Part shown: one piece after another, positions 15,730-20,100 of the stretch
How positions within the stretch are numbered: the stretch's first letter is position 1
How the letters are laid out: each line of letters begins with the position of its first letter
Source of the DNA: a virus
DNA: 20,100 nt
Strand: one strand, 5' to 3'
IMG/VR virus record: IMGVR_UViG_3300033571_008550
Location: 1-20,100 of that record
Translations under genes and position numbers: made by a program
The notes under the pieces: model-generated
Database searches by the model: none
What the model was told of the DNA's origin: nothing
What the model saw: the letters and a program-made list of their open reading frames with translations, nothing else

Positions 15730-16036
15730 GCTCCGATGCTGGCTGGATTGGCTTTGGCATTATAACTGTGTTTACATTGGCCTCAAGCTCAATGTTTAAA
15801 GCAGCCTTACCATAGGCTCGATCAAGAAGCAACTCTGCTGCCCTGACATCTCCCTTAGTGGCTTTGGCTCTAAGAGCCATCAGAATAGCCTCTGCTGCTG
15901 TCTTGCCATCCTTCTCATCGCCAAGGACATTGGCAAGTAATTCCCTTAACTCAGGGATTTTTTTTGGCCTGCCAGCAGGATTTCCTGTCTGTCCTTTCTT
16001 CCATTTATGCGGTATGACATTCTCTGGCTTCGGCAT
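15716..16036 (-). CDS. Terminase small subunit-like protein (DUF5681-type)
   Basis: This 106-aa protein opens with KWKKGQTGNPAGRPKKIPEL (11-30), the DUF5681 signature, a basic DNA-binding start found in many terminase-associated proteins. Two helical segments follow (LRELLANVLGDE and AAEAILMALRAKATKGDVRAAELLLDRAYGK, roughly 31-76), then an acidic/hydrophobic C-terminus. It overlaps the terL start by 14 bases, the usual neighbour relation for TerS and TerL. TerS would bind packaging sites and recruit TerL. Its start (ATG 16036) lies 30 bases downstream of the tRNA-like sequence and inside the end of the mom frame (32-base overlap), with no Shine-Dalgarno sequence. If the tRNA-like segment is processed, terS would sit at the new 5' end of the message. 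Confidence 0.75.
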   Translation of the reverse strand: MPKPENVIPHKWKKGQTGNPAGRPKKIPELRELLANVLGDEKDGKTAAEAILMALRAKATKGDVRAAELLLDRAYGKAALNIELEANVNTVIMPKPIQPASEHGND

Positions 16037-16829
16037 CGGTGTTTTTTCGCTGTAAAGTACCTTTGAGCGATGGGGTGGAATCGAACCCCTCCTGACTGCT
16101 GGATGCAGCCTGTGCTACCTTTAACACTTCCATCGCTTGTTTTCTTTCTTGCAAAGTTATTTTTTTTCCTTTATACATTCCTGCATCTAATTTATCGATT
16201 TCTGAAAAGGGAATTGATTTACATAATAAATCGCAATTTTTATTTATTAAATAAATATACCTTAATTGATATCCAGTAGATGGATAATAACCTATCTGTC
16301 TTAAAAATTTTCTATGCCCAGTTTTTCCATCGTGATTTAATCTTTTTCTAATTTCCTTAGAAGTTCCAAAACCAATTACACTAATTACTTCTTTTCCATT
16401 AGTAAAAAGATTAAAATTCTTTTTTATATCAGTTAAATAAAAACCTGATGCTCTATAAATACAACCGTCTCCACATTGGGTTGCATCACTAAAACTTATA
16501 ATCCAGTCAATGTGTGGAGCATTTTTTTTTATTAGTTTAATTGCAATTGAAATACACCTACTTTCTGAGTTTTTTGGTAAATAGTCATCAAATGCCATTC
16601 TATTTAACTCAATAAAATTATTCCATGATGAATTACTTACCAAATTCATTAGTGATTTTTTTATTATTGGATCTCCAAATGATAACACACCATGAAGTTT
16701 ATTATCTAAGAAACATCCAAAATATAATTTACTAAGTGTTGATTTTTTTGAATAATGATGCTTTTTAATAAACTCATTTCCAATTTTAGATGGAATTACT
16801 TTAACAATTATATCTTTTGCCCTGCCCAT
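16005..16829 (-). CDS. Mom-family DNA modification protein (adenine hypermodification)
   Basis: The 274-aa frame carries the Mom-family blocks: KKHHYSK (22-28), HGVLSFG (46-52), ELNRMAFDDYLPKNSESR (74-91) and WIISFSDATQCGDGCIYRAS (109-128), with GMYKGKK (217-223) near the end of the core. Phage Mu Mom, a GNAT-fold enzyme, puts a glycinamide-type (methylcarbamoyl) group on adenine N6 and protects phage DNA from many restriction enzymes; this protein should do the same. The start overlaps the ParB-like gene by 22 bases. The core ends at about residue 231. Residues 232-255 are the in-frame translation of a tRNA-Gly-like sequence, and 256-274 read into the terS start, so the true C-terminus is uncertain. 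The gene is near 25% GC in the stretches I counted, well below its neighbours, which suggests acquisition by transfer. Confidence 0.88.
   Translation of the reverse strand: MGRAKDIIVKVIPSKIGNEFIKKHHYSKKSTLSKLYFGCFLDNKLHGVLSFGDPIIKKSLMNLVSNSSWNNFIELNRMAFDDYLPKNSESRCISIAIKLIKKNAPHIDWIISFSDATQCGDGCIYRASGFYLTDIKKNFNLFTNGKEVISVIGFGTSKEIRKRLNHDGKTGHRKFLRQIGYYPSTGYQLRYIYLINKNCDLLCKSIPFSEIDKLDAGMYKGKKITLQERKQAMEVLKVAQAASSSQEGFDSTPSLKGTLQRKNTDAEARECHTA
16066..16136 (-). tRNA. tRNA-Gly(UCC)-like sequence embedded in the mom 3' end (atypical)
   Basis: Read on the minus strand, the acceptor stem GCGATGG/CCATCGC is a perfect 7 bp, with T at discriminator position 73. A D arm (GTGT/GCAC, loop with GG), an anticodon stem GGCTG/CAGTC (one G-T pair) with loop CATCCAG, and a T loop TTCGATT closed by G-C follow in tRNA order and spacing. 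The anticodon would be UCC (glycine). G1:C72, C2:G71, G3:C70, U73, C35 and C36 are the known bacterial glycine identity elements, and all are present. Unusual points are A8 and A33 (normally U), two mismatches in the T stem, a 3-base variable loop and no encoded CCA. It could be a non-translational or decaying tRNA. It begins exactly at a mom codon boundary (Ala232), and the frame stays open through it. Confidence 0.6.
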
Positions 16830-17395
16830 TGCACAATAATTAAATATAAAGCATTTCCATTAGAGTTTTCATTACCCATTGTTTCTACATACTTATATTC
16901 TTTTGTTGTTTTTATGCTTGTAATTGCATTTTGAATTTGTATAGCTTGTTCATCAGCTAAAGTAAATGTTATTTGTTGAAACGGTGGTTTATCTCCATCT
17001 GGTAAACTAAATTCATCCTGTCCTATTTCAATGCCTTCAAATTGTGGCACATCTAATCCCCACTTATCAAGTTCTTCTGCATCCCAATTGTTTGCGAGAT
17101 CATCCCAATCCCACTCTCCAAATCCAACATTATCCTTGATGATGAACTCTCGCTGCTTGGCCTCATCCCAATCAACTATCTCCACAGGCACTTGCTTCCA
17201 CTTGGCCTCTTTCATGGCCTTGAATCGCATGTTGCCTCCCAGGATAACCATGTCCTGATTTACTACTATTGGCCTGACATTAGCCATCTCTGGGAAATCC
17301 TTGAGCGATTGAACGAGCTTCTTGAACTTATCATCCTTGATAAGTCTTGGATTGCTTGGATTAGGCTTGATTTCTGCGATTGAAACTACTTGCAT
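16808..17395 (-). CDS. ParB-like N-terminal domain protein (195 aa)
   Basis: Residues 1-100 are a ParB/Srx-type domain: IAEIKPNPSNPRLIKDDKF (6-24), VRPIVVNQDMVILGGNMRFK (40-59, containing the conserved GG-N-x-R block) and a DEAKQREFIIKDN helix. The following DWDDLANNWDAEEL is the usual acidic linker in phage ParB-like proteins next to terminase or methyltransferase genes. Residues about 140-195 are a separate region (FTLADEQAIQIQNAI ... ALYLIIVQWAGQKI). Such proteins bind or nick DNA or bind a nucleotide in phages; partition is unlikely with no ParA here. It is followed by mom with a 22-base overlap. The last ~60 codons belong to an AT-rich stretch continuous with mom, so the 3' end may have arrived together with it. 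Confidence 0.82.
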   Translation of the reverse strand: MQVVSIAEIKPNPSNPRLIKDDKFKKLVQSLKDFPEMANVRPIVVNQDMVILGGNMRFKAMKEAKWKQVPVEIVDWDEAKQREFIIKDNVGFGEWDWDDLANNWDAEELDKWGLDVPQFEGIEIGQDEFSLPDGDKPPFQQITFTLADEQAIQIQNAITSIKTTKEYKYVETMGNENSNGNALYLIIVQWAGQKI

Positions 17396-17576: not shown

Positions 17577-17834
17577 TTACAATTGTTTTCGCAAAGATAA
17601 GTAATAAAGGATTGCCTCATACATGTCTCGCTGATTCTGCCAGCGACTCATGTGCCTGGTAACTCCACCTTCTTCAATTTTAGCATTAAGCTGCTTAATT
17701 TTTCGCTGAAGGTAGTCCTTGCATTCAAGGAAGTTAAAATTGTTGGGGATGTGTTCGTACATAAGATCATTCGTATAGGTAGCTGTTCCTTGCCATGTTT
17801 GTGGCACTTGGCTTACATGTATTGGATTATTCAT
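17577..17834 (-). CDS. Hypothetical small phage protein (85 aa)
   Basis: I do not recognise this 85-aa protein. Residues 1-35 are polar and aromatic (PIHVSQVPQTWQGTATYTND). The second half is an amphipathic helix pair (KDYLQRKIKQLNAKIEEGG and RDMYEAILYYLSLRKQL), so a small helical or coiled-coil protein is likely. There is no membrane segment or catalytic motif. It overlaps the helicase stop by 8 bases and is followed 4 bases later by the DUF6496-like gene, so it probably belongs to the replication operon. A role as a helicase partner is possible from position only. Confidence 0.55.
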   Translation of the reverse strand: MNNPIHVSQVPQTWQGTATYTNDLMYEHIPNNFNFLECKDYLQRKIKQLNAKIEEGGVTRHMSRWQNQRDMYEAILYYLSLRKQL

Positions 17835-19158
17835 TATAGTCTTTAAGGCGCATTAGTGGCCCATCGAAGCGCAAAGGTACTATGCCTGTGCTTCCAGAGC
17901 GCATCTTAACCTGGTCAATCAGACAAAGGTCTTTGTTAGGCAATTCAGCACTGCCTACTTTGGTAGTGGCTGATGGCTCAAAGTAATACTCTGGTCTTAT
18001 CATCATCCAGATGACATCAGCATCCTGCTCAACTGATCCAGACTCACGAAGGTCACTCATGAGTGGCATCTTGTCGCTGCGCTCATCTACTCTCCGGCTA
18101 AGTTGCGATAAGGCTACTACCGGAATCTGAAGTTCTTTTGCAAGCAGCTTTAGACCTCTGCTTATCTCGCCTATGATGTTTACTCGGTTTGTCTCCTTTG
18201 GATTGACTGAGTTGATTAGGCCTATGTAATCCACAAATAGCACTTGCATCTTGTGCTTATTTTTCCACATGGTGGCCTTGGTTCGGATTTTTGACATGTT
18301 TAGGTAACCTTCATCGCTGATCTTGATGGGCCATTGCTTCATCCGGTGTACTGCTTCATAAAGGGCAGTCTTATCGTACTGGTTCATGTCACCTTGTTTG
18401 ATTTTATAGGCGTAAATGTTGCTCTCCTGGGAAGCTAATCGCTGCACCAGCTCGTGCTTGGTCATCTCAAGGCTGAACAGACCACAGCCAATTCCTTGCT
18501 TGGCTAAGTTGCGAATCATGGTCACAGCGAGGGCAGTCTTACCCTGTCCTGGTCTTGCGCCTATGATGGTAAGCTCTCCATTGACCAGACCTCCGCAAAG
18601 TTTATCCAAGGCAGCCAATCCTGTTGGATAGCCAGAGATTTCGCCAGGCTTTGAGTTAAGCCACATCTTGGCTGATATATCCAGCTGCTTATGAAAGTCA
18701 TCATCCGAGCGAGTAATGGTACTGGCAAGGATGTTGTCAAACTTGGACTGATACTCGGAGAATAGGTCGAAGATGTCACCGGAGTCTGACTGCGACTTCT
18801 GGAGTAGTTCCAGGCTAAAGGTGTATAGCTTGGCCTTCAGAAAGTGTTCGATTAGAAGGTGGCTATGGCTTTCAATGTGGCCTGGTGACTTCAGGCAGGC
18901 AAAGATGTTGGCTATGGCCTTAGTGCCTCCAACTTCTTTTATTAGACCAGACTTCTTGATGGTGGCAACTGTTGTTTCTAAGTCTACTGGTTCTCCGGCA
19001 TCCTGAAGTGCTTGGATTGCCTTGGCTATGATCTTGTGCTGCTCTATTTGAAAGCAGTCAAGTGTAGGTAGGATAGAGAAAGCTGTTAGTCTATCCTCTG
19101 GGGAAAGCATCATTGCGGAAAGGACTTGCCTCTCCAGTTCTGAATTTTCGAATTGCAT
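17827..19158 (-). CDS. Replicative DNA helicase, DnaB-type
   Basis: This 443-aa protein has the two DnaB parts. The N-terminal helical domain (about 1-110) carries LERQVLSAMML and ILPTLDCFQIEQHKIIAKAI. The RecA-type C-terminal domain begins at the linker GYPTGLAALDKLCGG (176-190) and has Walker A GARPGQGKT (200-208), the catalytic glutamate of FSLEM (E231), Walker B VLFVDYIGLI (306-315), and the SQLSRRVDERSDK to DLRESGSVEQDADV block (351-382) that carries the sensor and arginine-finger residues. It loads onto single strands and unwinds the fork as a hexamer. The gene follows the DUF6291-like protein by 12 bases. In such phages that protein probably opens the origin or loads the helicase. No DnaC-like loader was identified. 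The length and motifs suggest an active enzyme. Confidence 0.96.
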   Translation of the reverse strand: MQFENSELERQVLSAMMLSPEDRLTAFSILPTLDCFQIEQHKIIAKAIQALQDAGEPVDLETTVATIKKSGLIKEVGGTKAIANIFACLKSPGHIESHSHLLIEHFLKAKLYTFSLELLQKSQSDSGDIFDLFSEYQSKFDNILASTITRSDDDFHKQLDISAKMWLNSKPGEISGYPTGLAALDKLCGGLVNGELTIIGARPGQGKTALAVTMIRNLAKQGIGCGLFSLEMTKHELVQRLASQESNIYAYKIKQGDMNQYDKTALYEAVHRMKQWPIKISDEGYLNMSKIRTKATMWKNKHKMQVLFVDYIGLINSVNPKETNRVNIIGEISRGLKLLAKELQIPVVALSQLSRRVDERSDKMPLMSDLRESGSVEQDADVIWMMIRPEYYFEPSATTKVGSAELPNKDLCLIDQVKMRSGSTGIVPLRFDGPLMRLKDYNE

Positions 19159-19170
19159 ACTTGTTTTGGT

Positions 19171-19773
19171 TTAGGGAGTAAATGTATAGGATTCATGCAT
19201 CCGGTGCGACCGTGCGCCCGGAACATCATGTGTTTGCTCGTTTTTTTTGTTTTTAGAGAAATTCGATTGATTTCTTGCCCATGTTGCCAGCCTTCTGCTA
19301 ATGTCAAAGAACTTCTCAGCCTGATATCTCATCTTGCCTTTTGCATCCTTCTCCATCCAATAGCCTTGAAACTCTTTAAGCATTTGCTTATCATATTTTG
19401 GCTCAAATGATGAGAGGTCTGATATATCTAATTTAACATCTACATCTTCATTTTCATCCTCATTTACATCTACATCTACATCTACATTAGCTTCGGGTTT
19501 GCTTACCTTTTGCTTCCGCTTTGCTTCAGTCTTGCTTATGCTTTGCTTCTGCTTTGCTTTACATCCGCTTTCCCATTTAGTCCTATTTGCCTGAAGATTA
19601 GGCTTAATAAGTAACCAGAATGGTTTAGCAATAGGTGACAATTCAGGCTCAATACCATCAAGACCGAACTCAAAAATTGCCTTAAAAATCTCCAATTGAA
19701 TGGCATCTGGGAGCAACTTAATTGCATCGTAAAAGCTTCTGTAAAGGATCATGCTATCTCTACTTTTTTCCAT
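19171..19773 (-). CDS. DUF6291-like phage replication protein (200 aa), gene contains candidate origin
   Basis: Residues 1-70 match the DUF6291 pattern (SMILYRSFYDAIKLLPDAIQ ... IFKAIFEFGLDG ... PFWLLIKPNLQANRTKWE), a domain common at the start of replication blocks in Bacteroidota phages. Residues 70-95 are lysine-rich and low-complexity (KAKQKQSISKTEAKRKQKVSK), then comes an acidic run of alternating V/D/N/E (about 95-112), both produced by DNA repeats. The C-terminal part has YDKQMLKEFQGYWMEKDAK and FFDISRRLATWARNQ, the kind of DnaD-like/primosomal ending that recruits helicase. I infer an origin-binding initiator because DnaB follows 12 bases later and the 11-bp repeats lie within the gene, as in lambda O. 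The last 15 codons look unusual (GARSHRMHESYTF) and may not be conserved. Confidence 0.72.
   Translation of the reverse strand: MEKSRDSMILYRSFYDAIKLLPDAIQLEIFKAIFEFGLDGIEPELSPIAKPFWLLIKPNLQANRTKWESGCKAKQKQSISKTEAKRKQKVSKPEANVDVDVDVNEDENEDVDVKLDISDLSSFEPKYDKQMLKEFQGYWMEKDAKGKMRYQAEKFFDISRRLATWARNQSNFSKNKKNEQTHDVPGARSHRMHESYTFTP
19436..19489 (-). repeat. Nine hexamer repeats encoding an acidic V/D/N/E tract
   Basis: On the plus strand nine 6-base units lie in unbroken register: ACATCT twice, TCATTT, TCATCC, TCATTT, ACATCT three times and ACATTA. On the minus (coding) strand they read GATGTA-like and give the alternating V-D-V-D, N-E-D-E-N-E-D run. The unit keeps frame, so it can expand or contract without breaking the gene. 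It borders the 11-bp repeat array and may be an easily melted neighbour of an origin. Confidence 0.8.
19498..19563 (-). repeat. Six tandem 11-bp repeats (TTTGCTTCNGC), iteron-like, candidate replication origin
   Basis: Six consecutive units of exactly 11 bases begin at 19498, 19509, 19520, 19531, 19542 and 19553: TTTGCTTACCT, TTTGCTTCCGC, TTTGCTTCAGT, CTTGCTTATGC, TTTGCTTCTGC and TTTGCTTTACA. A seventh, weaker TCCGCTTTCCC follows. Five of six keep a perfect TTTGCTT. Because 11 is not a multiple of 3, the repeat falls in all three codon frames, so the DNA, not the protein, is what repeats. The 11-bp period is about one helical turn, so sites would face the same side, as in initiator-binding iterons. 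Confidence 0.75.
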
Positions 19774-19816: not shown

Positions 19817-20016
19817 TATAAACAAGGGTACTCAATGGTAGTTAAATGATGGTCATCAAAAAGCTCAACAAGGTCTATGTCAATCCAGTCCTCGTAAGTT
19901 GATGTTCCTAAACATTGGTCTTCATCCCAAATTGATACTTCAGTAGGATGTAGATATGCACCTGATTGATATTTGATTGTAATTACAACCTGAATCTTTT
20001 TTTCATTTTTTGACAT
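19816..20016 (-). CDS. Hypothetical small phage protein (66 aa)
   Basis: This 66-aa protein is not recognised. It has a lysine-rich start (MSKNEKKIQ), a beta-rich middle (VVITIKYQSGAYL, EVSIWDEDQ) and an acidic C-terminal half (YEDWIDIDLVELFDDHH). Net acidity and small size fit an early regulatory or anti-defence peptide, but nothing shows this. The ATG at 20016 follows a U-rich run at the foot of a large folded leader, with no Shine-Dalgarno sequence. The next gene starts 42 bases after its stop. Confidence 0.5.
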   Translation of the reverse strand: MSKNEKKIQVVITIKYQSGAYLHPTEVSIWDEDQCLGTSTYEDWIDIDLVELFDDHHLTTIEYPCL

Positions 20017-20023
20017 AAAAACA

Positions 20024-20096
20024 AAAACCCCATCCGGCTTTCCCTGTTGCGAACAGCCGGAACATAGGCTGACAGGTACTGACCGAATGGGGCTTT
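20024..20096 (-). terminator. Branched, terminator-like structured leader before the 66-aa gene
   Basis: On the minus strand a 10-bp outer stem (AAAGCCCCAT at 20096-20087 with ATGGGGTTTT at 20033-20024, one G-U pair) encloses at least one strong inner hairpin: CTGTT/AACAG (20056-20052 with 20048-20044) extended by CCGG/CCGG (20060-20057, 20037-20034). A weaker GGU/GCC and CAG/CUG arm lies at about 20068-20084. The outer stem ends in a U-rich run reaching to 7 bases before the ATG. The G-U pair would be an A-C mismatch on the other strand, so the minus-strand RNA is the likely folded form. It may end an upstream transcript or act as a regulated leader. Confidence 0.55.
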
Positions 20097-20100
20097 AATA

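Follow-up and report, generated by a model that had tools for sequence, protein, structure and literature searches.

A phased array of 11-bp direct repeats inside a phage DUF6291 gene, a candidate replication origin

Introduction

Why would a short DNA unit be repeated, at a spacing that is out of step with the codons, in the middle of a gene that appears to encode a replication initiator, and which protein would read it? This question is raised by a gene of the DUF6291 family in a 20.1-kb virus record, of which all 20,100 nucleotides were analysed and are referred to here as the window. The initiator region of the window is identical to a region in a 35.5-kb virus contig. The initial annotation of this DNA, made from its letters, had regarded the repeats as a candidate origin comparable to the iterons in lambda O. 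The encoded protein belongs to DUF6291, as judged from a score of 79.7 bits against a Pfam gathering cut-off of 27.2 and a match that covers profile positions 1-73 of 79. The Pfam entry for this family (PF19808) assigns no function to it, and a literature search found no paper naming the family.

The array and its host gene

The features of the region, all of which lie on the minus strand, are collected in Table 1. Read on the coding strand from the domain towards the C-terminus, the array consists of the units AAGCGGATGTA AAGCAAAGCAG AAGCAAAGCAT AAGCAAGACTG AAGCAAAGCGG AAGCAAAAGGT AAGCAAACCCG AAGCTAATGTA, after which it passes into a (GATGTA)n tract. The tetranucleotide AAGC recurs eight times at exact 11-bp steps, from 19570 down to 19490, and the units are thus helically phased direct repeats. 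The six tandem 11-mers with a TTTGCTT core that the initial annotation had placed at 19498-19563 are real, and their exact 11-base spacing was borne out over a register of eight units that is longer than claimed; TTTGCTT itself is exact in five of the six, the remaining one reading CTTGCTT. Because the first unit, AAGCGGATGTA, codes for part of a conserved WESG motif, seven units are secure and the eighth may be driven by the protein. As 11 is not a multiple of three, the AAGC core is translated in all three codon phases. A chance origin of the array can be ruled out, since dinucleotide shuffles of the window yielded no chain like that of eight AAGC at 11-bp steps, and at none of the other periods of 7 to 23 did the window have a chain of at least five AANC.

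Table 1. Location of the array, its host gene and the adjoining features in the window.
Feature	Position	Strand	Basis or remark
Iteron array, eight 11-bp units each starting AAGC (putative iterons)	19483..19570	-	Seven secure units and one (19560-19570) inside conserved WESG codons
6-bp (GATGTA)-type tract beside the array, candidate melting or spacer region	19436..19487	-	TRF
DUF6291 replication-initiator gene, 200 aa	19171..19773	-	ORF; PF19808, E=1.8e-22; relatives
DUF6291 domain, residues 7-79, three helices, the last entering the linker	19537..19755	-	Pfam range; AlphaFold2 pLDDT 91.5
Predicted disordered linker, residues 71-115, with most of the array and the 6-bp tract	19429..19563	-	AlphaFold2 full-length model, pLDDT under 50
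C-terminal region	19171..19428	-	Relatives have other C-terminal types in its place
DnaB-type replicative helicase, encoded immediately downstream	17827..19158	-	PF03796, E=2.8e-79

The host gene lies right before dnaB, and its assignment in the initial annotation as a putative initiator is backed by relatives of the gene. The gene adjoining DUF6291 encodes DnaB in L010, L044 and L071, a primase-helicase in L070 and a loader of the DnaC/DnaI/IstB type in L039 and L129, and DUF6291 is fused to a DnaD/DnaB_2 domain in L100 and to Phg_2220_C in L014. In the AlphaFold2 model, the third helix of the DUF6291 domain runs into a basic linker. No solved relative of this fold that shows DNA binding was found by sequence search, which returned no solved relatives of the domain, by Foldseek against solved structures, which gave no significant match, or by VIA-align, which gave common helical arrangements only, a known fold being still possible. 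Some of the viral models that are similar to the domain bear the names replisome organizer and DnaD-domain protein. A DUF6291 protein is also encoded at 45238-45444 of NZ_OY725926.1, a 51-kb Bacteroides finegoldii plasmid record that may be a phage-plasmid.

The 6-bp tract beside the array has a codon bias of its own in relatives, in which valine is encoded by GTA at 195 of 230 positions (against 76 of 347 in the domain) and codons are also biased to AAT. The tract of the window is about 67% AT, the same as its flanks, and melting at this place is therefore a guess, which weakens the earlier suggestion that the tract could melt easily.

Conservation of the array as DNA

A search of genome contigs with the single window protein produced no matches, and a search with an alignment of the family produced 72 loci. 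In the window and in its relatives, the repeated sites lie within the initiator gene. Close relatives have AAGC in 162 of the 163 units that make up 20 distinct arrays, and the bases between these tetranucleotides vary. The codons that fall in register with the array are locked: serine is encoded there by AGC in 60 of 60 cases, compared with 52 of 269 in the rest of these genes, and lysine by AAG in 41 of 41 cases, compared with 144 of 381. One relative, L007, has exactly three extra units, and as this gain of 33 bp corresponds to 11 codons, both the register and the reading frame are kept.

To what extent such a pattern exceeds the needs of the protein was assessed from the match of each linker with itself at a lag of 11 bases, which was set against shuffles of synonymous codons and of codon order; a linker was considered to pass when at most 4 of 400 shuffles reached its match in both. 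In relatives from the window's clade, the match was reached by 0 to 4 of 400 shuffles. Of 104 distinct DUF6291 linkers, taken from phages, virus contigs and bacterial genomes, 61 passed the test; among the 83 that lie outside the window's clade, 40 did so. The remaining 43 of the 104 linkers failed the test for period 11, some of them having other repeats, and arrays are absent altogether from a Bacteroidota DUF6291 clade with a different C-terminus, which constitutes a natural negative. For many genes the score at lag 22 equals that at lag 11; since the units show no alternation by eye, this is read as a harmonic.

With the synonymous nulls rejected and the array codons locked, the repeat is conserved as DNA beyond what the protein needs, in agreement with the initial annotation, which had argued that a unit out of step with the codons is kept at the DNA level. 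The comparison with related phages that it had suggested as a check also came out in its favour, in that period and place are the same and the register test is passed, the core differing by clade. From these sequence comparisons it is evident that the window carries about seven to eight direct asymmetric sites of one helical turn (11 bp) each, which are kept by selection on the DNA.

Repeats of other kinds also occur in DUF6291 linkers. The linker at about 5200-5400 of L063 has long repeats with inverted AACCATAGGTT / AACCTATGGTT elements and no 11-bp array. Most of the clostridial DUF6291 genes L092, L095, L097, L098, L099 and L117, which fail the 11-bp test, have linker repeats of a TGF/LGF type that possibly represent a different type of site.

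Core sequences and the occurrence of arrays in viral contigs

The window's clade and several Clostridia have the AAGC core, and AACC is the core in elements of Riemerella, Bacteroides, Lachnospiraceae and others. ACCCC occurs in three genes from separate parts of the tree, and AACG in one gene. One supported clade mixes cores, with AACC in L014, L070 and L071, AAGC in L072 and ACCCC in L074. A GGRP-like motif directly follows the domain in 23 of 26 AACC genes and in all 3 ACCCC genes, the latter also having a GxxYG insert, and in none of the 33 AAGC genes; five imperfect arrays were classed by hand prior to this count. These figures are suggestive of covariation between the array core and the residues adjoining the DUF6291 domain, which is not proven because the independent changes are few and the tree is poorly resolved, a tree-based test of independent pairs for core versus GGRP having too few supported pairs for significance. 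The changing core and its adjoining residues nevertheless provide a recognition rule that can be tested.

Viral contigs were also scanned by DNA alone for five AAGC or five AACC at 11-bp steps, the only two cores covered, and at least 120 loci were found for each. For AAGC, 93 of 116 host ORFs among the matches listed are initiator-like (70 DUF6291 and 23 others), and for AACC, again among the matches listed, 85 of 116 are (31 DUF6291 and 54 others), the others being on-strand ORFs with an N-terminal stretch of at least 60 residues before the array. Many of the listed hosts that are not DUF6291 match DUF1376 or PHROGs for DnaD-like helicase loaders, replication initiation (O-like) and primosomal proteins, and a match to such an initiator family was found for nine out of ten of these hosts picked by hand. 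With the spacing of AAGC set to 10 bp, 95 loci were obtained, and 25 of 81 host ORFs were DUF6291 or on-strand ORFs in which 60 or more residues precede the array; initiator-like genes with AAGC at 10-bp steps include L409, L433, L435, L440, L459 and L466. At 13 bp, none of the hosts of 29 AAGC loci was initiator-like. A 48-base DNA pattern alone finds initiator genes, so that the sequence itself could reveal the origins of many uncultured phages and prophages.

Translation offers a reason for the form of these cores. On the sense strand, AAGC and AACC encode hydrophilic residues only, in all three phases and save for a TAA stop in one context, and their complements encode mostly hydrophobic residues. 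This would account for the fixed orientation of AANC and for its recurrence in unrelated initiators, and we infer that AANC suits a disordered linker. The binding-site array and the protein linker would then use the same bases, which gives a simple reason for the cores that are allowed. A broader reading, the case for and against which we judge to be evenly balanced, is that one-turn 11-bp sense-oriented AANC linker arrays mark phage replication origins in general, whatever the initiator family. DUF6291, DUF1376, DnaD-like and O-like proteins would on that reading have converged on cores translatable in three phases into a disordered linker, and the core would be set by the basic motif adjoining the DNA-binding domain, according to whether this motif is GGRP-like and whether it has GxxYG.

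Comparison with known origins

Rep2009 of phage Tuc2009 and ORF13 of phage TP901-1 bind direct repeats in their own genes, and these repeats act as ori (PMC8965321). The window resembles both in having direct repeats inside the initiator gene, for which binding and origin roles are proposed here. The record of Lactococcus phage Tuc2009 annotates rep as containing the origin, and in the middle of this gene there are four AACC at exact 11-bp steps. However, the Tuc2009 protein is a DnaD-like replisome organizer and not a DUF6291 protein, and its array has four units only. TP901-1 was rejected as a second precedent for AANC at 11 bp, as its rep has 15-bp repeats instead.

The ori of lambda is situated within gene O, which is longer in relatives that have extra iterons (PMC7466680), the lambda iterons being 19-bp near-perfect inverted repeats for O dimers (PMC5043065). 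The earlier analogy with these iterons stands as far as location and logic are concerned, since both loci have the presumed or known origin in the middle of the initiator gene and a helicase-recruiting gene adjacent, and the 11 residues gained by L007 parallel the longer O. It does not hold for the type of repeat, which is an 11-bp asymmetric direct repeat in the window and a 19-bp inverted repeat in lambda, and the window protein has no match to O-like Pfam and PHROG families. Plasmid iterons, in contrast, are helically phased direct repeats bound by monomers (PMC5043065). The array thus shares with iteron plasmids such as P1, F, RK2 and R6K the direct repeats phased with the helix. Plasmid iterons are longer, about 17-22 bp, and sit outside the initiator coding sequence, in both of which they differ from the array, and a Pfam search of the window protein gave no match to a Rep_3 or RepA-type domain. 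The window array combines the placement of the lambda origin with the repeat type of plasmids. The best explanation is that it resembles the lambda ori and the lactococcal rep origins in its working, the DUF6291 protein not being a lambda O homologue.

Proposed function and alternatives

The array probably represents a set of one-turn iterons that are bound by the DUF6291 protein of their own gene and form a phage replication origin inside the initiator gene, and a function is hereby proposed for a family that has so far been without one. In the mechanism that we envisage, DUF6291 monomers would occupy one face of the DNA in a head-to-tail row, binding through the long third helix and the basic stretch that follows it. 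The array would in this way wrap or strain the DNA, a neighbouring stretch, perhaps the 6-bp tract, would open, and the C-terminal domain would recruit the phage DnaB or its loader. GC skew was considered as a general test for such an origin and was discarded because its outcome is mixed and confounded by gene direction. In NrS-3 and GRNRAP2, both recorded as circular complete phage genomes, the cumulative GC-skew minimum lies 124 bp and 347 bp, respectively, from the end of the domain, where the array starts, the array of NrS-3 being imperfect in that steps of 11 and of 12 bp both occur. Nine linear records have their minimum at a distance of 0.9 to 12 kb from the array, in a position that tends to go with the orientation of the genes.

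It is unlikely that the array is an origin whose reader is not the DUF6291 domain but the helicase loader of the phage, a host protein or a C-terminal part that is shared. A single reader for all arrays can be imagined because AACC arrays occur with several unrelated N-terminal families, but the recurrence of AANC may merely reflect that it is tolerable in all codon phases, and within DUF6291 the core goes with the residues that adjoin the domain. The C-terminal region of the window is also found in initiators with a different N-terminus. Three such genes (L011-L013), which have the C-terminal regions of the window's clade behind a different N-terminal domain, carry linker arrays of 12 bp and not 11 bp, and these arrays beat the synonymous null, that of L013 less strongly. 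A different array period in genes that share the C-terminus and differ in the N-terminus points to the N-terminal part as the one that reads the array.

Distinctly unlikely is a role of the array as an operator for the replication operon, at which the DUF6291 protein or some regulator of the phage would bind while replication begins elsewhere. Tandem one-turn sites would fit cooperative repressors, and binding in iteron systems is often accompanied by autoregulation; however, the array lies in the middle of the gene, about 200 bp past the start codon and away from recognised promoters, and a promoter scan found a single promoter-like match, on the opposite strand, where three are expected by chance. 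An operator would also leave unexplained the association of the pattern with initiator genes from several families. Very improbable is a low-complexity linker, repeated for the sake of the protein or made by slippage and with no function as DNA. The linker is indeed predicted to be disordered, an 11-aa protein repeat coexists with the array and the adjacent 6-bp tract looks slippage-like, yet the synonymous-codon null is rejected in many genes, which rules out a pure protein repeat, the array codons are locked, and the period remains constant while core and peptide vary. A partition (centromere-like) or packaging site is highly improbable too: although 11-bp direct repeats are known in plasmid parC sites, the repeat length resembles that of ParR-type centromeres and a ParB_N-domain protein is encoded at 16808-17395, the gene for this protein adjoins a Mom gene and not the array, more than 3.5 kb lies between the array and the large terminase gene, and the pattern tracks initiator genes rather than par or terminase genes.

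Other features of the region

The Mom DNA-modification protein (PF25680, E=2e-41) is encoded at 16005-16829 of the window, on the minus strand like the ParB_N-domain protein beside it. No known RNA element was found in the array region by Rfam at gathering scores, and the leader described here has no Rfam match either. This 87-nt structured leader lies upstream of the initiator at 20014-20100 (minus strand) and is formed by a 15-bp outer stem and two inner stems, followed by a U-run. The same leader is found at 2717-2803 of L003, 1821-1907 of L007, 1945-2031 of L029 and in others, with one copy per record, and in many relatives it ends exactly at the ATG. Seven of its base pairs have compensatory changes, and 99.7% of cells are paired. 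Hairpin variants of 67 nt, with weak scores against the leader model, abut the initiator start codon at 4934-5000 of L010, 1537-1603 of L023, 4931-4997 of L030 and 2585-2651 of L034. The leader might regulate the initiator, as an attenuator or in some other way. At 4142-4227 of L013 it precedes an initiator whose N-terminal domain is a different one, and the leader thus belongs to the module and not to DUF6291.
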